Positions 246-10,498 of a stretch of DNA of 64,000 bases are shown in pieces; positions within the stretch are counted from its first letter, which is position 1; each line of letters starts with the position of its first letter. Source of the DNA: Candidatus Krumholzibacteriota bacterium (GTDB lineage: Bacteria > Krumholzibacteriota > Krumholzibacteriia > Krumholzibacteriales > Krumholzibacteriaceae). The notes under the pieces were generated by a model. The model worked only from the letters and a program-made list of their open reading frames with translations. It had not been told where the DNA came from and made no database searches. Location: the NCBI GenBank assembly GCA_016932415.1, contig JAFGCX010000006.1:1-64000 (forward strand), given 5' to 3'. A program made the translations under genes and the position numbers.

Positions 246-1886
246 CTAGCCTCTTCCGATGAGAAGCCTTCCGGCGGTTTTCGCCGTATCTCCAGTAGTA
301 CCCATGCATGCAATGACTGTTTTCCCGGACGGGATCGACCTGGCATCCCATGGCCGCTCTCCAAGTACGATGACTGAATATTCACGCGTCAGGCCAGCGA
401 GGTTTTCGGGTAAAAGAGGTCTTCTGTTCAGCAGGACCAGCACTTTTTCCGAATCGCTCGAAGCTGGCAGAGGCAAGTACCGATATAACTCGACCGGCTC
501 CCGCGTTCGGTCGATACTTCTCCCGGCACAGGGAATAAACTCATCGCGGCCCGGCTCCCCTGCCGCCCCGAACACTTTACTCAGAACCGACACGAACTCG
601 ATCACCGGAAAGTATTCGAAATCCTTTATCTCGCCGCAGAAGACCGGCTCGACCGGTATCCCGGCACCGAAGGGAAGCAGATTCCTCTCGTCTCGCAATA
701 TAGTGACGCTCTTTTCGGCCACTATAGAGTAAACCTCATCATTCCACTCCGCGCCGGGATACTTCCGCCGATTGGGCGCGATGCGTTCTTTCATCGCGAT
801 GATCCTTTTTCTCGATTCAGATGAGATCTCCGGAAAGGTCCCTTCCCAGAACTCTTCGTCCTTGATAAGAATCGGGAGCCTATCCCTCAGCTCGCTATAG
901 ACTTCTTCGGCCGGCCTTGTGAAAAGAAGGATGTCATTTCCCGCCTCCAGTGCTGATCTTGCGACTTCAGCAGGTTTACGAGTACGGGTATGCGTCGGGC
1001 CGGCTATCTCCGATCCTTTTTTCAGCGCGGAGCAGCCTCTTCTCTCATCTGTCGGACCTGTAGGGATCGCCGTAACTCCTCTTCCGGTCAGCGCTCCGGC
1101 CATCTCCAGCCCGTCAGTGATAATAACGCCATCGAATCCGATTTCACGGCGTAGCACTCCATTTATGATACCAGGGTCGAGAGAGGCGGGAAGCTCCCCG
1201 CCGGCGGGAAGCAGATGAGCCATCATCACCGAATCTGCTCCCGCTTCGATCCCCGCGATGAAAGGAATCAAATCATCCTTCTTAAGCCCGGCGATCGACT
1301 TCTTCAGCATTGGAAGAATGACATGGGAATCACCTGACGAAGATCCATGGCCGGGAAAATGCTTAAGCGAGGTCAATAGCCCCTCTTCGGACAATATTCG
1401 TACTGCTTCGGCCACCGCCAGAGTCGTTTCAGGTCCCGATTCGGCGAAAGCACGGGTCCCGATCACAGGGTTCAAGCACTCGGAGTTGATATCCGCAACG
1501 GGAGCCGCGACCATATTGACCCCCGCTGATAGTATTCTTCCCGCGGTCTCCCTCAGCTGGACTTCGAATATGCTTCTATCTCCCTGCCCCCACGCGGCCA
1601 TCTGCGAAGGTGGTGTTCCAAGCGCTTTCGCCAGCACAGAGATCCTTCCACCTTCATGATCAGCCATTATAATCGGCGAAAGACGCGCCGAAGATCTTAT
1701 GATTTCCGACACCTCGTTTGTCAGCCTGCCGAGCTGCGCTGCATTCTCGACATTCCGGGCGAAAATTATCACTCCCGCCGGCGCCAGTCTGCCCAGAAGA
1801 TCCCTTTCCCCGTCAGTCAGTTCGGTAGCGGCGAGACCGACTACGAGATGAGCGGATAGTCTTTCAAGCAACCTGTCAATATCCAT
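246..1886 (-). CDS. Glycoside hydrolase family 3, NagZ-type beta-N-acetylglucosaminidase
   Basis: This 546-residue GH3 enzyme probably removes GlcNAc from muropeptides or GlcNAc-anhydroMurNAc during wall recycling. The NagZ signature KHFPGHG is at residues 175-181, followed by the Asp-His pair D186/H188 that serves as acid/base in NagZ enzymes. The likely nucleophile is D258 in ITDGLEM. After the nucleophile, an insertion of about 35-40 residues (around 268-305, rich in Gly, Thr, Arg and Pro) interrupts the usual link to the next helix. About 180 further residues follow the catalytic domain, making it longer than the roughly 340-residue single-domain NagZ. No signal peptide is visible, which fits a cytoplasmic enzyme. 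It is the last gene of an operon behind the SpoIID/LytB and AnmK-like genes, which supports a peptidoglycan substrate. Other GH3 specificities are possible but less likely given the KHFPGHG...DSH arrangement. Confidence 0.88.
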   Translation of the reverse strand: MDIDRLLERLSAHLVVGLAATELTDGERDLLGRLAPAGVIIFARNVENAAQLGRLTNEVSEIIRSSARLSPIIMADHEGGRISVLAKALGTPPSQMAAWGQGDRSIFEVQLRETAGRILSAGVNMVAAPVADINSECLNPVIGTRAFAESGPETTLAVAEAVRILSEEGLLTSLKHFPGHGSSSGDSHVILPMLKKSIAGLKKDDLIPFIAGIEAGADSVMMAHLLPAGGELPASLDPGIINGVLRREIGFDGVIITDGLEMAGALTGRGVTAIPTGPTDERRGCSALKKGSEIAGPTHTRTRKPAEVARSALEAGNDILLFTRPAEEVYSELRDRLPILIKDEEFWEGTFPEISSESRKRIIAMKERIAPNRRKYPGAEWNDEVYSIVAEKSVTILRDERNLLPFGAGIPVEPVFCGEIKDFEYFPVIEFVSVLSKVFGAAGEPGRDEFIPCAGRSIDRTREPVELYRYLPLPASSDSEKVLVLLNRRPLLPENLAGLTREYSVIVLGERPWDARSIPSGKTVIACMGTTGDTAKTAGRLLIGRG

Positions 1887-1975
1887 AATGATCCTGTCTG
1901 GATAAATTCATCTTTAACCGGATTTGATTATCTTTTCGGTCCTGTTGACCTGTCGAAGGTGATCCGTTCCCATAC

Positions 1976-3253
1976 CTATTGATAAAAACGCTTGATAGTG
2001 ATCCCGGGATAGTAGTGATAGAGTATCTCTTCCGCGCTGTGGCCAAGCTCGGCCATGCGAATCGCTCCTGTCTGGCACATCCCTGTCCCATGACCGTTTC
2101 CTCCACCCTTGAGATCGACCGACACTACCTTCCCGCCGGCTCGCCTGACCTCCATCTTGAACAATGTGCTTCTGAGGATCGGCCCGTTGGCAAGTCCCGG
2201 TCTCAGGACCCAGCGGATCCTGTCCCCGGTCACATCATACGATCCATTCTCTGTCGTGATCCTCAGTCTTTCTATCCGCCCGCTTCGCGATACTCCACTG
2301 GTACTGATATCTACCAGGCTGTTGAATGAAGCCACTCTTGATCCAAGCTCGGCGGGAAGGGTCTTTTTAAGGATTTTCAGAAGATCCCTTCCGGTCCAGT
2401 GTTCTTCCCACCGAAAGTGGCGCGAATCCGAGCAGAACGACTTCCCTCCCGGACTTGCCGCGTCGCGATTCCCGTAAAGATATGGAAATTGGGCTTTCCA
2501 TGGCCAGCCGACGCGGATATCGGCTGTATATCCACCACAACAGGATGAATAGTAAGCCTTGATCGGATTACCATTCCAGAGCGCAACCAGCCCCCTGGTC
2601 TCGTCGACCGCCCTTGAGGCATCGGGGTATTCTCCGCCTATTCCCTTATAGACCTGGTCCATTATCGTCGCGCGCAGGTCATACGGCTCGCCCTTTTTTT
2701 CCTCCAGCTTGCTGAGCGCGTACGAGCGTGAAGCGATCGCCTGCACCTTGAAAGCTTCATACTGGTCTTTTTTAAGGTATCCTATCTCCGATGGAAGCAC
2801 TCCTTTGATATAGTCATCAAGATCTATTATGTTGATCGCCAGTATATTATCCCGCTCTCCGCATTGCAGCATCAGGATTCCTCTGTAGACCTTTCCGTTT
2901 ATGCTGAATCCTTTGCCTCCTTCAGGCCTTATGATCAGGATCGGCGTCCTCGGAAGGCCTCGCCCCCTTTTCAAGACCTTCAGTTCACGTCCAGCTCTAG
3001 ACACAGTGACAGGCCCATCGAGAAGAAACCCGTCTGATATCGTATTGTCATCCTGCCTGCACGCTGCATTGGCCGCTCCCGCGTCTATATCGACTTTTCC
3101 ATCCGTATCGAGAATCAGGACACGGACCATTGCAGATTTCGACGAGACCGGTTCTTTCTCGACCTGACGTGAGATGTAACGGGCCGGTTCCTTTCCACAG
3201 GAGAGGAACAGGAAGAGCAGGATCAGGCTTGGGGGAAGGAAGGCCTTTCTCAT
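1976..3253 (-). CDS. SpoIID/LytB-domain lipoprotein
   Basis: This 425-residue protein starts with a lipoprotein signal (hydrophobic stretch ending LFLSCG, lipidated Cys about 19), so it is probably anchored in the envelope. The SpoIID/LytB domain runs from about residue 130 to the end. It contains DDYIKGVLPSEIG, with E156 matching the catalytic Glu of SpoIID. It also has SRSYAL, a YYSSCCGG segment in place of the usual Y-H-S-t-s-G-G, and the C-terminal GHGTGMCQTGA and HYYPG motifs. SpoIID is a lytic transglycosylase acting on denuded glycan; LytB is an amidase enhancer. The gene sits 58 nt after the AnmK-like gene and 89 nt before the NagZ-type gene. A wall lyase feeding the recycling enzymes encoded with it is therefore a natural reading. 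The ATG at 3253 is followed directly by the signal peptide. Confidence 0.88.
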   Translation of the reverse strand: MRKAFLPPSLILLFLFLSCGKEPARYISRQVEKEPVSSKSAMVRVLILDTDGKVDIDAGAANAACRQDDNTISDGFLLDGPVTVSRAGRELKVLKRGRGLPRTPILIIRPEGGKGFSINGKVYRGILMLQCGERDNILAINIIDLDDYIKGVLPSEIGYLKKDQYEAFKVQAIASRSYALSKLEEKKGEPYDLRATIMDQVYKGIGGEYPDASRAVDETRGLVALWNGNPIKAYYSSCCGGYTADIRVGWPWKAQFPYLYGNRDAASPGGKSFCSDSRHFRWEEHWTGRDLLKILKKTLPAELGSRVASFNSLVDISTSGVSRSGRIERLRITTENGSYDVTGDRIRWVLRPGLANGPILRSTLFKMEVRRAGGKVVSVDLKGGGNGHGTGMCQTGAIRMAELGHSAEEILYHYYPGITIKRFYQ

Positions 3254-3311
3254 TAGAATAGATTTCCTTTCGAAAATGGATCAGATCAAACCGGCCATCA
3301 AAACTGGTCTT

Positions 3312-3965
3312 TCAGGCGGGGAAAAAGAACTCTCCGGACAGATCGGCATTCCCGCCATCTGAATCCCTTTCGCAGGGGTCTTGCCCTTTGCCATCCGAGC
3401 AGAGCGATTCGTTGGCCAGCATCGCGACGCAGACAGCTTCGCGGGATTCCTTATCGAGACCGAACTTTTTCATCGCACCGTCCACTAGACTCTGCAGGAT
3501 CGCTTCGCTGACAGAGACCGCGGTGCCTTCACTGCCGGACAGTATGGTAAAATGGCTTGCCACAGCCACTCCGGCCATTTCGCTCAGGGCCGAAGGGTCT
3601 TCGGGAAATATCCTTCCCGCTATTTCCATGCATTTAAGACCGATAATGTCCACCTCTCCGGAATCGATATCGACTTTCTCAAACAACTCCTGGTAGAGGC
3701 TGATTATCTGGTGAAGGATCAGAAAATTGATCCCCGCTGTATCCTCCGAATCAAAGTCATCAGCAACTTCGAGAGCTTTTAACGCGTTGAGAAGTTCCTG
3801 GGGTAATGCCATCGAATGCGTTCCTTTAAGGTCGATCAGGGTATCGTTGCCATACCCGCTGACTTCGACGATGACAGCTCCAAGCCGCCCCGGCCTGTTA
3901 CCTGTTTCTATACCGACGATAAGCCTGTTCTTTTTCTTTCTTATTTTTTCCAGGAATTTTTCCAA
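3312..3965 (-). CDS. Short, degenerate AnmK-like protein (anhydro-MurNAc kinase relative)
   Basis: This 217-residue protein resembles the two ends of AnmK (anhydro-N-acetylmuramic acid kinase, normally about 370 residues) by eye. Residues 13-120 match the AnmK N terminus in layout: a glycine-rich strand, GYGNDTLIDL, LPQELLNAL, INFLILHQI and a VDIIGL segment. The family M-S-G-T-S-x-D-G ATP loop is replaced by ETGNRPGRLG. Residues about 160-197 match the C terminus (ESREAVCVAMLANESL, like the usual K-E-A-x-x-F-A-x-L-A). The central segment with the G-H-G-Q-T and G-G-I-A-N motifs and the catalytic Asp is absent. It starts with TTG at 3965 behind GGAGGT. It is the first gene of the operon with the SpoIID and NagZ genes. 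Kinase activity seems unlikely; a scaffold or sugar-binding role is a guess. The acidic, Cys-containing tail is unusual. Confidence 0.6.
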   Translation of the reverse strand: MEKFLEKIRKKKNRLIVGIETGNRPGRLGAVIVEVSGYGNDTLIDLKGTHSMALPQELLNALKALEVADDFDSEDTAGINFLILHQIISLYQELFEKVDIDSGEVDIIGLKCMEIAGRIFPEDPSALSEMAGVAVASHFTILSGSEGTAVSVSEAILQSLVDGAMKKFGLDKESREAVCVAMLANESLCSDGKGQDPCERDSDGGNADLSGEFFFPA

Positions 3966-4183: not shown

Positions 4184-7100
4184 TCACTCCAGTTTCACGG
4201 AAATCGTCTTTCTGTCTATCTGCTTTCCATCTTTCTCCATACGCAACATAATGATGTAGTTTCCATTGGCCACTCTGTTGCCAGCGAGGTCGCGGCCATC
4301 CCACCAGATATGATTGGGGATATATTCACCCTCCAGAGACCCGCTGAACTGCCCTAGCATACTCGGAGGAATCTCTATCTTCCTTATCAATCTCCCCGAG
4401 ACATTGTAGATCATTATCTTTCCTGAATCGACCGCGATATTATTCGTAAACGATATATTGGTCCCGGAACTGAATGGATTGGGAAAACTGAAGAATCCAA
4501 CTGCCAGCTCTCCACCGGTCACTTCAAAAGCGAACTCCTTGGAATATTCTCCTACCCGAACGGAGAATTCGTGGCTTCCACCGATAAAATCCCTTGAAAA
4601 AGAGACTTCCCAGTGAGTCGAATCTGCTCCGGATGGAACCGACATGACCACCTCCGATAACTCCGTTCCGTCAAGCAGCAGCAGGGGGGGCTGAGCCAGA
4701 AAGACCGGAAAATCTACTTCCAGGCGAAAATCTCCGCTCGGAGGGACCTCTCCACCGGACATTACCTCGTTATCTCCGTTATAAAACATCCTCATCCGCG
4801 TATTTATTACAAGTTCTCTCTGTCCGGCGAGACGGCCTCCTGGCCTATGGATATTGAAAGTCAGACCCCCGTCTTCAAGCGAGATATCGTATTCGATCTC
4901 CGCGTAATACCCTCTCGCCCATGTCGTCGTCTCGGACCCGATCCTTGTTATTGAAAGCTCGCCGCTTCTGTCCTCGTCGTCGACAAAAAGGGTTATCTCT
5001 CCCAGTGATATCACGTCGCTCGCTCTTAAACGAAGTCTGCACATATTTGATCTGTTCTTCGACCTCAGCGTATCTGATTCCATTTCCTGCCAGCCCTCGC
5101 CCCAGTCTGATTCCAGAATCATCATCGGTGGACCCGGATCGACCGTTATCATCGGATCACCCAGAAGAAAATATCTGTAACTTTGAAGAAACCCGTAGAA
5201 TGTCGATCCGATATGTTCTATTTCCGCCTTGGTCAAAGCCTCTCCGAGATTCCAGTGGGCTCCCGTCTCTTCCATGGCGGGTGGTATCAGATCATCCGGC
5301 GGATACTTGAAGATCGTCTCATGCAAGCGGTCAAAGAACGTCTCGTTCTGGTCAAGCAGTTCAAATCCTGAACTTGCGTAGGCGGAGACCGCCCCGGACC
5401 TCGATTTAAACAACATCTGCTCGCTGATACAATCGCCGTTCGGCCCGTCGACCGAGACGCGCGACAACTCCTGCACGATCGCGTACTGGCTGATATGGCA
5501 GCCCGCTCCAAAGAAGATAAAATTCCTGTCGGAAGTCAATTTGTCGAGATCCCTGTACTGGCTGAACATAGAGAATCCCGATTCCGTGCTTAGATGCGCC
5601 CTGTGCGCGTGCCCCTGGAACGAAAAAATCAGGGCTCCTTCATTCAACCGGGCAAGGATATATGGAGTGAAATACTCTCTCGTCGAATCTGTCACTTCTG
5701 AATAGAGATTAATCCCACTGTCCCCGATATCATGAAGGCTGTCTGTCCAGCTTGAAAGAAAAAGCCTCTGGATATCGAAACCTCCCGGAAGTGAAGATTC
5801 GATATCCTGGGCGATCCGTTCCATTCCCTGCTCGAAGTGAAGCTCTGTCGAGTGATATCTGTAATCAGGATAACCTGACCACGCGTCGTCGGCAAAGAGA
5901 ACTGTCCTTCTTCTCCACTGATCGCTCATTTTCGGGTCCTCGAACCGGTACATCTTGATAAGAAGCGCTCTCAGTTCAAGGTCTCCACCTACCGGCAATC
6001 TTCCAACGAAGACGTCCGGATAACCGCTCTGGGGCCATTCTTCATCGAGAAAAGCGTAATACTTGTCTGTCGCGATCACCTCGTCGTCATAATCAGCACC
6101 TATCACGTCGACGCTGTACGTAAATGGTGGTATATAATCGGGAGGCGTTCCCTTTATCGGGGATGGATCATAAAAGATCTGTTTGTGGTCCTCGTTTCCA
6201 TCTCCGACGAGAAGCACGAAATCCACTCCCCAGTTATCATGACCGAACCGGATAAATCTTTTGATCGCTTCGGTCGATTTCAGGCCGCCGTTGAACTCGT
6301 CGTAAATATCCTCGACATCCACCTTCAGGATCCTGAATCCCTGATCTTCCCTCCATGTCTTGTATTCGGTGAGCGCTGTCACCGAAGGTTCAAGAAAATC
6401 ACTGTGCGCTATGACAAGAGCGTCGAACGGTCCTGTCTCGGATATATGCGCCGATGGGTTATCTACCGATATCCAGTCGTTATAAATATGCCCGGCTCCG
6501 CTTCTTCCCGAGATGACAAACGATTTTTCTGTCATCGCGAGAAGATCCAGGTCTATCGAATAACTGTTTCCATCGAGATGGTAATCTGCCCCCGGGAGAG
6601 TGAGGAATAGTGGCGCTTCAGCGTCTGAAATATCGATAATAAAACCACCTGGCTCTGAAAAACCGGAAACGGTGACGGCTTGCGAAGCGATCTTGCCGGC
6701 CAGGGAGAATTCGAGGATATCGCCAGCCGCGTTGAACCCGGCGGGATATATTATCTCGAAATCATTTACGAGAAAACCATAACTCGAACTTCCCGAGATG
6801 ACCAGTTCATTCGTCCCGTCGGCCAGATAGTTAGATGGTATGCCGGTAAACTCAAGATCAAGATCTCCCGTACTGCGGAGAATTCCCGTACCTGCCGTAT
6901 TGGTCCCCGCGGAATTGCGTATCCTTACTGTCACACTCTGGTTCAGGGCACCCCAGATCGAACCTGTGAGTCTGACCGAAAGGGTAAAAGTGTTCGAAAG
7001 GTCGGGAGAATTGATCTCGAAGGGAATCACTGTCTCACCGCTTAGCGGCCCTTCAATGTAGTAAAAATCCCATTTCCCCGCTAACGTGTACCTGTTGTAA

Positions 7101-8248
7101 TATGTGTCCTTCCTATTCCTGGAGCGCGAGTCGAACAGTGTCGTCGGCATGGCAGGTCCCTGGGCGGGAGAAAAATCATCCATCAGAGTGCCCGCCTCAT
7201 CCTCCTCGAGCCATATGATATTATAATCTGTAAATGTGGCGAACTGGTCCCCTGCCTGAGCGTCATCCTTTATACCCCTGGCGTAGAAAACGACTATATC
7301 GTCTCCTTCGAAGATCGAAGGCGAGGATTGCGTGCCCTTGATTATCCGGTATGGAACGGGGGTCTTACGCTTCAGGCCCGGCTGTCCCTGGTCAAAATAC
7401 AATTTATTCAGGGAAAACCCGGTATTGGAGATTGAAGAGGACATCCCCGATGATATCAGGGAATCAGCCCTTACGGCATATACTCCCGTTTCGGGGATTT
7501 TGATCTTCAGGCGTTTTCCCGCTTCGAAAGGGACAGCATCCCTGCGGATATCTTTCGTGCTTTTTATATACTTCTCGACATCGCGGGGATTTACGAGGAG
7601 ATCATCATATATCCTCTGCCATCGCTTTGAAGCCGGCCCATCTGTCGTACTGAATGCTCCAGGCCGTTCGGTGACTCCTCCAGCGAAAGCTACCCGGACC
7701 GTCATCTTTCTGGCGATCCTGTACCGCCCCCCCGAGAGATAGACAGGGCTGACCATGACGGGAAGGACTCTCTGCCGGCTCATAAACGCGGGCGCGCCTG
7801 CTTCCAGAACGCTGATCGCTGACTCACCCTCACCCCTGCCTTCGGGGAGATAATACTCCACCCCGGGGATATCACCTTCATTTTTAACAAAACGGCCCTC
7901 TTTGACCCTCTCCAGGTTCAACTCCCCGAGATCATCACTGACGGTGATACTGTAATCTACCGACGCCTTCCCCTCCGGAGGGATCGCCACATGAAAAGTC
8001 TTTCCCGGCAACAAGAAAGAACCGGGGCGAGAGAATGAGCCGTACCCTTCAAGGACTATCCTTACGGCCCCACCTCCGGACAGTTCGATCCCGGGCTGGG
8101 GTATCTCGATCTCGAATACAACTCCTTGCGGGGAAGAAGATACAAGACGCGTGGCAGCATTCAGATGAGCAGCGCTAAAAGAGAGGAGAATCAATGTTAT
8201 CAGTAATGACCTTTGAGAGGCCGCTTTGAAGAAAATCGATTCTTTCAA
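4184..8248 (-). CDS. Secreted C25 (gingipain-family) cysteine protease, PorU-like
   Basis: This 1354-residue exported protein has a signal peptide at residues 1-31. A long N-terminal beta-rich region includes the lead-in seen in PorU proteins (prolines around a Y-Y-L-P segment and a VLPVMVSPVYLSGG stretch). The peptidase C25 domain spans about 610-960: LLVGDGNEDH, DVFVGRLPVGG, the catalytic His in FSFQGHAH (about 878) and the catalytic Cys in FGAGCHISQY (about 916). The C terminus is a FlgD/type A sorting-like domain: FPNPFSSGTNISF, IYNVSGRLIRKI, WDGRDLAGNRVANGNYI. PorU is the type IX secretion sortase that removes such domains, and it carries one itself. A plain secreted protease is the alternative. 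It starts with TTG at 8248, with AGGAG seven bases upstream. It stands alone, after a terminator and before the cell-wall operon. Confidence 0.8.
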   Translation of the reverse strand: MKESIFFKAASQRSLLITLILLSFSAAHLNAATRLVSSSPQGVVFEIEIPQPGIELSGGGAVRIVLEGYGSFSRPGSFLLPGKTFHVAIPPEGKASVDYSITVSDDLGELNLERVKEGRFVKNEGDIPGVEYYLPEGRGEGESAISVLEAGAPAFMSRQRVLPVMVSPVYLSGGRYRIARKMTVRVAFAGGVTERPGAFSTTDGPASKRWQRIYDDLLVNPRDVEKYIKSTKDIRRDAVPFEAGKRLKIKIPETGVYAVRADSLISSGMSSSISNTGFSLNKLYFDQGQPGLKRKTPVPYRIIKGTQSSPSIFEGDDIVVFYARGIKDDAQAGDQFATFTDYNIIWLEEDEAGTLMDDFSPAQGPAMPTTLFDSRSRNRKDTYYNRYTLAGKWDFYYIEGPLSGETVIPFEINSPDLSNTFTLSVRLTGSIWGALNQSVTVRIRNSAGTNTAGTGILRSTGDLDLEFTGIPSNYLADGTNELVISGSSSYGFLVNDFEIIYPAGFNAAGDILEFSLAGKIASQAVTVSGFSEPGGFIIDISDAEAPLFLTLPGADYHLDGNSYSIDLDLLAMTEKSFVISGRSGAGHIYNDWISVDNPSAHISETGPFDALVIAHSDFLEPSVTALTEYKTWREDQGFRILKVDVEDIYDEFNGGLKSTEAIKRFIRFGHDNWGVDFVLLVGDGNEDHKQIFYDPSPIKGTPPDYIPPFTYSVDVIGADYDDEVIATDKYYAFLDEEWPQSGYPDVFVGRLPVGGDLELRALLIKMYRFEDPKMSDQWRRRTVLFADDAWSGYPDYRYHSTELHFEQGMERIAQDIESSLPGGFDIQRLFLSSWTDSLHDIGDSGINLYSEVTDSTREYFTPYILARLNEGALIFSFQGHAHRAHLSTESGFSMFSQYRDLDKLTSDRNFIFFGAGCHISQYAIVQELSRVSVDGPNGDCISEQMLFKSRSGAVSAYASSGFELLDQNETFFDRLHETIFKYPPDDLIPPAMEETGAHWNLGEALTKAEIEHIGSTFYGFLQSYRYFLLGDPMITVDPGPPMMILESDWGEGWQEMESDTLRSKNRSNMCRLRLRASDVISLGEITLFVDDEDRSGELSITRIGSETTTWARGYYAEIEYDISLEDGGLTFNIHRPGGRLAGQRELVINTRMRMFYNGDNEVMSGGEVPPSGDFRLEVDFPVFLAQPPLLLLDGTELSEVVMSVPSGADSTHWEVSFSRDFIGGSHEFSVRVGEYSKEFAFEVTGGELAVGFFSFPNPFSSGTNISFTNNIAVDSGKIMIYNVSGRLIRKIEIPPSMLGQFSGSLEGEYIPNHIWWDGRDLAGNRVANGNYIIMLRMEKDGKQIDRKTISVKLE

Positions 8249-8470: not shown

Positions 8471-9031
8471 TTACTCGTTGATCAGGCTCTTGATAGCTCC
8501 CCAGGTGCTCGTTTCGTTGGCGACGACGCCATCCTGGTTGAGACCGAACTTGTTAAGAGGGGTCACTGGTTCGATCGTACGAAGCGCGTCACAACCGGCG
8601 ACCTGGACCTGGGTCTCGATAAGATCGTGAGCTACGAGCTCGACATAACCTGCAACACCGTCCATCAGATAGAACGGAAGGTCGAAGGTGTAGAACCAGT
8701 CGCCCTGGCAAGGACAGCTGACCTTGATACCAGGAGCGCCATAGGGGGCACCGTCGGCAATACCCATGGCAGGGTTCTTTACGCCGGCGAGGGCTACGAG
8801 GTTCGTAGTTCCATCAAGGGCAACCTGATACTCGAGAGCCGTGACACCATTGTCACTGGGCAGACAGTATACATAGATGTGGAAGTTAACGAAAGGCGGA
8901 ACGAAGATAGCTTCCTGGACTGTCCGTCCGTGATCGGCATAAAGGGCCATGTAAGCAATGGGGCCGGCATTGGCAGCGCCTGCCAGCATAGCGAGAGCGA
9001 TAACCATCATTAATGCTTTTTTCATCTTCAA
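8471..9031 (-). CDS. Small secreted protein with W-G-A-I-K-S-L tail (paralogue 1)
   Basis: This 186-residue protein has a clear signal peptide (hydrophobic core, cleavage near AGAANA/G at residue 22). I do not recognise a known domain. It is probably a compact beta-sandwich with one CPC motif (KVSCPCQGD) and one further Cys near the C-terminal half. The middle segment VTALEYQVAL resembles VTAIEYLLLA in the neighbouring protein at 9215-9766. Both end in TWGAIKSL, so they are diverged tandem paralogues. The shared tail suggests a retention, sorting or assembly signal, but this is inference. The ATG at 9031 has AGGAG at good spacing. A strong terminator follows, consistent with high expression. 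Confidence 0.75.
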   Translation of the reverse strand: MKMKKALMMVIALAMLAGAANAGPIAYMALYADHGRTVQEAIFVPPFVNFHIYVYCLPSDNGVTALEYQVALDGTTNLVALAGVKNPAMGIADGAPYGAPGIKVSCPCQGDWFYTFDLPFYLMDGVAGYVELVAHDLIETQVQVAGCDALRTIEPVTPLNKFGLNQDGVVANETSTWGAIKSLINE

Positions 9032-9214
9032 ATTACTCCTGCTGATAAGATAATCAACTCTAAATTTAACCTACACCTCGTAATCAGGAAGATTTCGGTG
9101 TTGAGTAAAAAACAGCTTCTATTCAGTCCCTACTCATCACCTCCTCAACCCGCGGCCCTGTGGCTGGATGACTGGTTTCACTCACCCAGCCACTTTATCC
9201 GCGATAGTTCTTCC

Positions 9215-9766
9215 CTATTTGTACAAGGACTTAATCGCACCCCAGGTACCATCTTCCACAGCTATCTGGTCGAGACAGAGGTATGTCGTCAGACCTATGA
9301 TAGGGAAAGTCTCGTTTTCGGGGTAGTAAGTACCACGTAACTCACCTGATTCAGGATTGACCGTTATTAACAGCGGATAATCCGGCATAAGCTCGCAAGG
9401 TGCCACGGTTATACAATTCAACGTCGCCATTAAATCGTAACCATCGGGGAACCCGGTCATCGGTGGCCAATAGGAAATGGCGTGGCCTTCGAGAGGATCC
9501 GTCGGCGAACCGATGGAGACCTGCTGGTTCGAAGGATACTCAACGCTCTGAACCTGGAAATTGGCATCCGGAGCAAGAAGCAAATACTCGATCGCTGTCA
9601 CATAATAGTCGCTCTGCACGAGAAAAAGATGCAGCTGGAAAGATGTCAGCATGCTCGGCTGATAATGCAGCTTTCCATCTGAATACAGACCCAAAGTCGC
9701 GTCAGCAGCGCCTAACAGTCCTGGAATCAGGAGAGCAATTGCAACTGTCAGCAGTACTCTCTTCAT
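9215..9766 (-). CDS. Small secreted protein with W-G-A-I-K-S-L tail (paralogue 2)
   Basis: This 183-residue secreted protein has a signal peptide (cleavage near LLGAADA). Its function is unknown. It shares length, general layout, the VTAIEY segment and the terminal TWGAIKSLYK with the protein at 8471-9031. The rest has diverged strongly, which suggests an old duplication or a shared secretion class. Two Cys residues (NCITVAPCELM) could form a disulphide. The mature protein is rich in Pro, Tyr and aromatic residues, as in surface beta-sandwich proteins. It lies 183 nt upstream of its paralogue and 84 nt downstream of the dockerin-like gene, all on the minus strand. They may share a transcript, but the gaps leave room for separate promoters. 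Confidence 0.73.
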   Translation of the reverse strand: MKRVLLTVAIALLIPGLLGAADATLGLYSDGKLHYQPSMLTSFQLHLFLVQSDYYVTAIEYLLLAPDANFQVQSVEYPSNQQVSIGSPTDPLEGHAISYWPPMTGFPDGYDLMATLNCITVAPCELMPDYPLLITVNPESGELRGTYYPENETFPIIGLTTYLCLDQIAVEDGTWGAIKSLYK

Positions 9767-9850: not shown

Positions 9851-10498
9851 TTAGAAGCATTCATGCAGATAATGCTCCCCGAAGAACGCAAAATCACTCA
9901 GGTTTATAATCTTGTCGCCGTTGTAGTCACAACAGTCATCGTACATTGCATCCCCGTCTGCAGTATTGTATGCATCACCGAAGATGGAGAAATCAGACAG
10001 ATCGACCTCGCCCGTGGGGATAAGGTCGGGGCTGATGATCTGGATATCGACGCATGTGACGTCGACGCATCCGGGCATATCTACGATAGTCTTGCCCTGA
10101 ATAGCCAGATAGATACCACCTGAAAGGATACATCCGCCGCCTGAGATACGGCCGGAGATCTCGGTATAACCGAACTCATCCGTAAGGGCATCCGCAGCAA
10201 AGGGAGCCGAACAGAGTGAGAGTTCCTGAGCCGGATCGCAAGCGTTCATCCAATAGTCAGTCCAGGGAATACCTTCAATCCCGTTTCCTGATGCGTCTCT
10301 GGCATAAAGCCAGATATAGTCGTTGCCATTGCCGCAACCATCATAGATCCACTCGAAATCCCCCGCGGGGCAGATCGAGACTCTCATACCTGTGCAGCTG
10401 ACACCGAACTCACTCTGACATGGGTCGACGTCACCAGCATACAGGGATGTTGCGAAAACGAGCAACAAAGAGAAAAGCAAAACTTTTCCTTTGAACAT
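9851..10498 (-). CDS. Secreted dockerin-like/Ig-like small protein
   Basis: This 215-residue protein has a signal peptide (cleavage near SLYAGD). The N-terminal two-thirds is a Cys-rich beta domain with an Ig-like DEFGYTEISGRISGGG segment, as in secreted proteins of related uncultured phyla. The C terminus has two EF-hand/dockerin type I-like segments: GEVDLSDFSIFGDAY and the better-preserved DYNGDKIINLSDFAFFGEHY. Dockerins bind calcium and cohesins; here a surface-assembly or calcium-binding role is inferred. The first segment lacks the full D-x-N-x-D calcium loop. The start ATG at 10498 follows GGAGG with eight bases between. It is the first of three consecutive small secreted genes. Confidence 0.74.
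   Translation of the reverse strand: MFKGKVLLFSLLLVFATSLYAGDVDPCQSEFGVSCTGMRVSICPAGDFEWIYDGCGNGNDYIWLYARDASGNGIEGIPWTDYWMNACDPAQELSLCSAPFAADALTDEFGYTEISGRISGGGCILSGGIYLAIQGKTIVDMPGCVDVTCVDIQIISPDLIPTGEVDLSDFSIFGDAYNTADGDAMYDDCCDYNGDKIINLSDFAFFGEHYLHECF

Follow-up and report, generated by a model that had tools for sequence, protein, structure and literature searches.

A short C-terminal tag on exported proteins of Krumholzibacteriota and other candidate phyla, and a PorU-like C25 peptidase encoded beside it, suggest a surface-sorting route that has not been described

Two neighbouring genes in a stretch of DNA from a Candidatus Krumholzibacteriota bacterium (64,000 nucleotides, hereafter the window) raise the question of whether a shared protein ending is a sorting signal or the conserved end of one protein family. 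Both encode exported proteins (Table 1), one ending in ETSTWGAIKSLINE and the other in EDGTWGAIKSLYK. The original prediction, made from the letters alone, was that the two differ through most of their length and share their last eight residues, as expected of a C-terminal signal for sorting or surface attachment by an unknown dedicated process. The octapeptide TWGAIKSL is real in both proteins but is not their last eight residues, being followed by INE in one and YK in the other. A DNA pattern for the shared block occurs twice in the window, against 0.03 occurrences expected from shuffling. BLASTP shows the proteins to be distant homologues (E=1e-5 across the N-terminal 69 aa), and a family alignment places both in the IGLYxD family, the largest tagged family of the fetched loci. 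Because of this homology the pair alone could reflect common descent and is no proof of a tag. Tagged protein 2 gave a low-confidence AF2 model, in which the tail forms a helix that follows a stretch of low confidence; a fold search with the model of the window protein was uninformative.

Table 1. Coordinates of the tagged genes and the conserved cluster in the window
Feature	Position	Strand	Basis and remarks
Tagged exported protein 1, IGLYxD family	8471..9031	(-)	186 aa in the ORF list, with translation probably starting at the ATG at 9025; signal peptide, tail, family alignment
C-terminal tag WGAIKSLINE, preceded by ANETST	8474..8503	(-)	End of tagged protein 1
Tagged exported protein 2, IGLYxD family	9215..9766	(-)	183 aa; ORF list, signal peptide, tail, family alignment
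C-terminal tag WGAIKSLYK, preceded by IAVEDGT	9218..9244	(-)	End of tagged protein 2
Exported protein with dockerin-like calcium-loop C-terminus (DYNGDKIINLSDF)	9851..10498	(-)	First gene of the conserved cluster; no Pfam match
PorU-like C25 peptidase, candidate tag-processing enzyme	4184..8248	(-)	1354 aa; signal peptide, C25 domain, FlgD_ig C-terminal domain
Conserved 217-aa protein, encoded after the C25 gene in several genomes	3312..3965	(-)	No Pfam family
SpoIID-domain protein	1976..3253	(-)	Pfam SpoIID; conserved gene order
GH3-family glycosidase, NagZ-like	246..1886	(-)	Pfam Glyco_hydro_3; conserved gene order

The ending is not confined to this pair. In the 3.1 Mb genome the DNA pattern for W-G-x-I-K-x-L has 15 matches, compared with one for the reversed control. 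Each of the 15 is in frame and lies 8-12 residues ahead of the stop; the proteins have a signal peptide or hydrophobic N-terminus and are mostly unrelated to one another. A simple count puts the chance of 15 such in-frame C-terminal placements at ~10^-40. The two neighbours are not unrelated, and it is these genome-wide matches that decide the matter. Two further tagged genes with variant ends adjoin each other on contig C37. The strict pattern is present in 69 of 80 genomes of the phylum, and W-G-x-[IVM]-K-x-L-Y has ~503 matches versus 4 for the reversed pattern in 78 Krumholzibacteriota genomes (sum of rows). The motif search in this genome and its relatives, proposed with the original prediction as a check, was positive in both.

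A scan of 84,980 genomes used a stricter pattern that ended in the stop. Those matches that were read lie at tagged C-termini; wherever the gene is complete an N-terminal signal is present, and the rest are cut by a contig end. By their record titles, the matches listed come from Eisenbacteria, Krumholzibacteriota, Latescibacterota, Cloacimonadota, Fermentibacteria, Coatesbacteria, Zixiibacteriota and UBP1. Among the matches listed, the tag is found across Eisenbacteria, Krumholzibacteriota, Cloacimonadota and other FCB-group candidate phyla. The phylum list rests on these titles, some of which are probably wrong. Records under the titles Fibrobacter sp. IMS_BF, Gemmatimonas sp. SW.020 and Latescibacterota CS4-C107 (G070, G069 and G079; loci L088, L109 and L098) have SprA coordinates identical to those of genomes grouped in the window's phylum, so their titles are probably incorrect. 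In Cloacimonadota the tag was seen only on a single family of orthologous exported proteins (SIYDIQFT..., probably related to nucleases; loci L097, L123, L149, L156). A tagged, diheme-like CxxCH protein is encoded beside purA at six loci (L014, L031, L032, L036, L037, L223), an arrangement kept in several genera.

The fetched loci supplied 232 unique tagged proteins, from which the motif [VTI]-[PAG]-[VTA]-E-x-x-[TS]-W-G-x-[IV]-K-x-L-[YF]-[RK]-end was derived, with a rough consensus of PVE-x-x-TWG-x-IK-x-LYR. The lead-in [VTI]-[PAG]-[VTA]-E-x-x-[TS] occupies positions -7 to -1 before the W. The W and K were required by the search pattern. Elsewhere in the 232 tails, G is found in 222, L in 210 and Y in 183 (otherwise F), with I, V or L before the K, and R or K followed by the end. 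The W is nine residues from the end in 167 of the proteins, and near the C25 gene discussed below it can be replaced by F, as in SFGAVKGRF. Taken as a helix, the tail is predicted to be amphipathic. In the AF2 model of an Eisenbacteria tagged family, a well-folded beta domain (pLDDT 78) is followed by a low-confidence linker and then the tail helix. No tail contains a transmembrane segment, and only 3 of 232 have even a weakly hydrophobic 17-mer. A loose lipobox pattern matches nine of the 232 proteins, about one of which looks like a lipoprotein on reading. The tail itself is covered by no Pfam or NCBIfam model in the tagged proteins searched, and a literature search on the motif, or on a C25/T9SS system in these phyla, found no description of the tag. 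A covalent Trp-Lys cross-link of the kind in streptide-type peptides was raised by the W-to-K spacing and has no support here.

Tagged cytoplasmic proteins would have refuted the original prediction, and none were seen. The 232 proteins, like the 15 of the window genome, have a signal peptide or hydrophobic N-terminus. There are 29 tagged ORFs without a detected signal peptide, of which 21 are cut by a contig end and 8 are unresolved. The tagged proteins of the fetched loci fall into ~100 homology families, 73 with a single member, and profile comparison of the IGLYxD, GLNLAW and beta-helix families shows that their cores, without the tail, are not homologous. Pfam domains on tagged proteins include beta-helix, NosD, lamin-tail, FG-GAP, NHL, nidogen-like, thioester, laminin-G and CBM96, among others. 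NCBIfam matches include choice-of-anchor J and V, PEP-CTERM ScyF, MYXO-CTERM MXAN_6652 and rhombotarget A; several tagged proteins sit in families whose other members bear PEP-CTERM, MYXO-CTERM or GlyGly-CTERM tags. The FlgD_ig signature WDG..G is present in 0 of 232 tagged proteins, and no match to TIGR04183, CHU_C or FlgD_ig was obtained on them (NCBIfam, and the 25 of 37 Pfam families listed). One beta-helix family has WG-tagged members and one relative with a FlgD_ig C-terminal domain instead of the tag. Sequence evidence thus establishes the tag itself and shows that it is confined to exported proteins, moves between unrelated domains and excludes the T9SS-type C-terminal domain. The tagged protein at L233:8160-9965 (-) joins a BlaR1/M56 membrane peptidase to a laminin-G-like domain with the tag at its end; an inner-membrane part is odd in a surface protein.

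What might read such a tag? The gene directly downstream of the tagged pair encodes a protein that matches Pfam C25 (E=2e-60) as well as FlgD_ig. It scores 166 bits against the NCBIfam PorU model (NF033707), under the cut-off of 420. The closest solved structure is PorU 6za2 (144 bits, versus 56 for the best gingipain chain), and the C25 catalytic pair, His880 and Cys917, is invariant in nine orthologues. A C25 of this type was found in 25 of 25 genomes, one each in nearly all and two in G006. A genome was considered testable if it had at least 1 kb of sequence upstream of this gene. Same-strand tagged genes, one to six each, lie upstream in 20 of the 22 testable genomes, the nearest at 98-400 bp in most, ~1 kb in G007 and 2.3 kb in G085. 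None were found upstream in G074, in the partial and distant G001 or at the second G006 copy. Outside that set, tagged genes lie upstream of the C25 in G084, G117, G089, G107 and G093, and at 1.5-6 kb in Eisenbacteria G082, G087 and G114; several other C25 loci, some on short contigs, have none upstream. A co-occurring protease was the other thing to look for, and the search found one.

The tag-linked C25 is distinct from canonical PorU. The latter adjoins PorV in 14 loci and tagged genes are near none of them, whereas no PorV was found near the tag-linked C25s. Tag-linked C25s score 146-203 bits against the PorU model, versus 542-566 for the three PorV-linked ones that were scored. In a tree the tag-linked C25s form a clade apart from PorU with support of 100/100, and when fragmentary, long-branched rows were added the two labelled groups stayed on opposite sides. 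On such evidence the conserved linkage of the tag to a PorU paralogue is demonstrated. Part of the linkage within the phylum is shared descent, and in Eisenbacteria the genes are more loosely linked; probabilities calculated for the linkage assume independence and are not counted as evidence here. The linked C25 might also work together with the IGLYxD proteins without reading the tag. The C25-linked tagged family of Eisenbacteria is not homologous to that of Krumholzibacteriota (three genomes). No clear C25 of the window type was found in the tag-bearing genomes of Cloacimonadota (G113, G127, G129), Zixiibacteriota (G086), Coatesbacteria and Fermentibacteria; in those genomes a different C25 must do the work, or else the pairing is wrong.

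The common tag and the recurrent neighbouring PorU-related protease suggest that these bacteria sort surface proteins by a route not described before. The best explanation, to which we give a probability of roughly one half, is that the tail is a short sorting signal processed at the surface by a dedicated PorU-like C25 sortase. The signal would comprise ~16 residues, the lead-in P-V-E-x-x-[TS] and an amphipathic helix W-G-x-[IV]-K-x-L-[YF]-[RK] on a flexible linker. The tagged protein would be exported by Sec and its mature domain would then fold; the tail would be recognised at the outer membrane and the protein placed on the cell surface, where the C25 encoded next to the window pair would cut the tail off. 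PorU cleaves the signal of T9SS cargo and joins the cargo to A-LPS (PMC7463736). It is by analogy with PorU that the C25 is proposed to cleave the tail and, probably, to join the trimmed protein to a surface acceptor. Passage through the outer membrane would most likely use a T9SS-like SprA translocon and one of many PorV-type shuttles. Recognition, cleavage, acceptor and route are all inferred, and there are no cleavage, localisation or binding data. The original idea of a sorting or surface-attachment signal for an unknown dedicated process is supported, since the tag is confined to exported proteins, occurs on unrelated domains and is linked to a protease, though its role in sorting has no experimental proof.

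A first rival holds that the tail is a minimal T9SS signal. SprA and a PorV/PorQ shuttle would read it, canonical PorU would do whatever processing there is, and the linked C25 would be merely another surface protease. Nearly all tag-bearing genomes encode SprA and an expanded PorV family. By Pfam, SprA is present in 34 of 38 genomes of the phylum and in 42 of 50 tag-bearing genomes of many phyla. The PorV family has 11 copies in the window genome and 6-18 copies in 16 of 16 genomes; the window genome also has 72 FlgD_ig domains. Flavobacterium johnsoniae uses different shuttles for different C-terminal domains (PMC12618676), and some tagged proteins come from genomes in which no second C25 was found. 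Against this, tagged genes lie near the second C25 and none near the PorU-PorV loci, and the known signals of T9SS are not short helices but domains that fold and span 70-100 residues (PMC11285876). The T9SS-rich Bacteroidota have no match among the matches listed from the 84,980-genome scan, an absence that is suggestive only. We regard this explanation as unlikely, though it survives better than the other rivals.

The SprA of the window genome was located with a profile of local SprAs (G000:C10:328661-335104), which finds SprA in 30 of 32 genomes, the match in G011 being weak and to another protein. Independence from T9SS, considered when SprA seemed absent from UBP1 and Coatesbacteria, was rejected because that absence is an artefact of the Pfam model. 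At most of six SprA loci (L251, L252, L253, L254, L255, L258) sprA adjoins a gene for an exported protein resembling glutaminyl cyclase (M28 type), and then come rimP, nusA and infB, an order kept across several genera. SprA is not beside tagged genes and PorV only once, and a general search of the neighbours of tagged genes found no recurring partner.

The rest of the cluster bears on a second rival, in which the tail is a non-covalent docking helix. An envelope or surface-layer receptor would bind the W-G-x-I-K-x-L face without cleavage, and the dockerin-like protein and the C25 would belong to the same assembly. The predicted amphipathic helix on a linker fits this idea, as does the dockerin-like gene that opens the Krumholzibacteriota cluster, found at the same place in G024 (the sister species of the window genome), G018, G017, G021, G025 and G033, with a similar gene in G005. 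The tagged Eisenbacteria family matches cohesin-like beta-sandwiches in a fold search; the match is weak (TM by query ~0.35), and no receptor gene recurs next to tagged genes. Docking without cleavage is a still less probable reading. At the other end of the cluster, where the window has its genes at 246-3965 (-), AnmK-like and MurQ-like genes lie in other genomes, which suggests a link to peptidoglycan recycling.

Short hydrophobic C-termini are known protease degrons. The tail might similarly be a periplasmic retention, chaperone or degradation signal, for instance for a C-terminal processing protease, and the tagged inner-membrane M56 protein would fit. The fixed W-G-x-I-K core with 1-6 trailing residues is unlike a free-carboxylate degron, and the tail is borne by dozens of structural and adhesive domains, which leaves this explanation little room. 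Common descent, in which the tail is the conserved end of one domain family, draws on the homology of the window proteins and the size of their family, and is already refuted by the ~100 tagged families and the non-homologous cores.

We return to the reading of a short signal with its own C25 sortase. A bolder form of it remains tentative: that FCB-group candidate phyla run two parallel sorting lines, the T9SS domain with PorU and the short helical tag with its own PorU-derived sortase, and that the second of these, in Krumholzibacteriota, assembles an array on the surface, with cohesin-like tagged proteins anchored there to receive dockerin-like partners from the same cluster. The cohesin/dockerin-like surface assembly is itself speculation. 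With the motif, surface or secreted proteins, most of them now hypothetical, can be recognised in genomes from several uncultured phyla, and the candidate enzyme placed beside it makes the pair directly testable. If the reading is true, this would be a sorting system outside the known pairs of tag and enzyme, in which a T9SS sortase was duplicated and given a new and much smaller signal.

The putative system may be compared with four kinds of known systems. LPXTG proteins and their sortases likewise pair a short C-terminal sorting motif with a cysteine transpeptidase, and C25 too uses cysteine. However, the tag lacks LPXTG, a transmembrane helix and a positive tail, the bacteria have two membranes, and the linked enzyme is a C25 and not a sortase. 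MYXO-CTERM with myxosortase and GlyGly-CTERM with rhombosortase likewise have a short C-terminal tag and one enzyme for dozens of cargoes (PMC11980579, PMC3237569), and some cargo families are common to them and the present tag (MXAN_6652, rhombotarget A). Their architecture of motif, transmembrane helix and basic end is missing from the tag.

A genome pattern of this kind also led to the PEP-CTERM/exosortase system (PMC1569441), whose tag has many copies per genome on diverse exported proteins that have little other homology. In the logo of 232 proteins the tag has neither the PEP motif nor the architecture of transmembrane helix and basic end. Exosortase was rejected as the partner of the tag, since only 15 of 38 genomes have it and the tag-rich G074 does not. 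The window genome does encode one at G000:C7:153232-153996 (L241), so a PEP-CTERM-like line may coexist there.

The T9SS C-terminal domain (TIGR04183, CHU_C or FlgD_ig-like) and PorU resemble the present pair in combining a Sec signal with a C-terminal signal on many unrelated domains and in their link to a C25 peptidase of the PorU family, and SprA and PorV are encoded in tag-bearing genomes. The tag and the FlgD_ig domain have not been seen in one protein. They differ further in that the tag is of ~16 residues with a short helix, against an Ig fold of 70-100 residues, and in that the linked C25 forms its own clade apart from PorU and under the curated cut-off.
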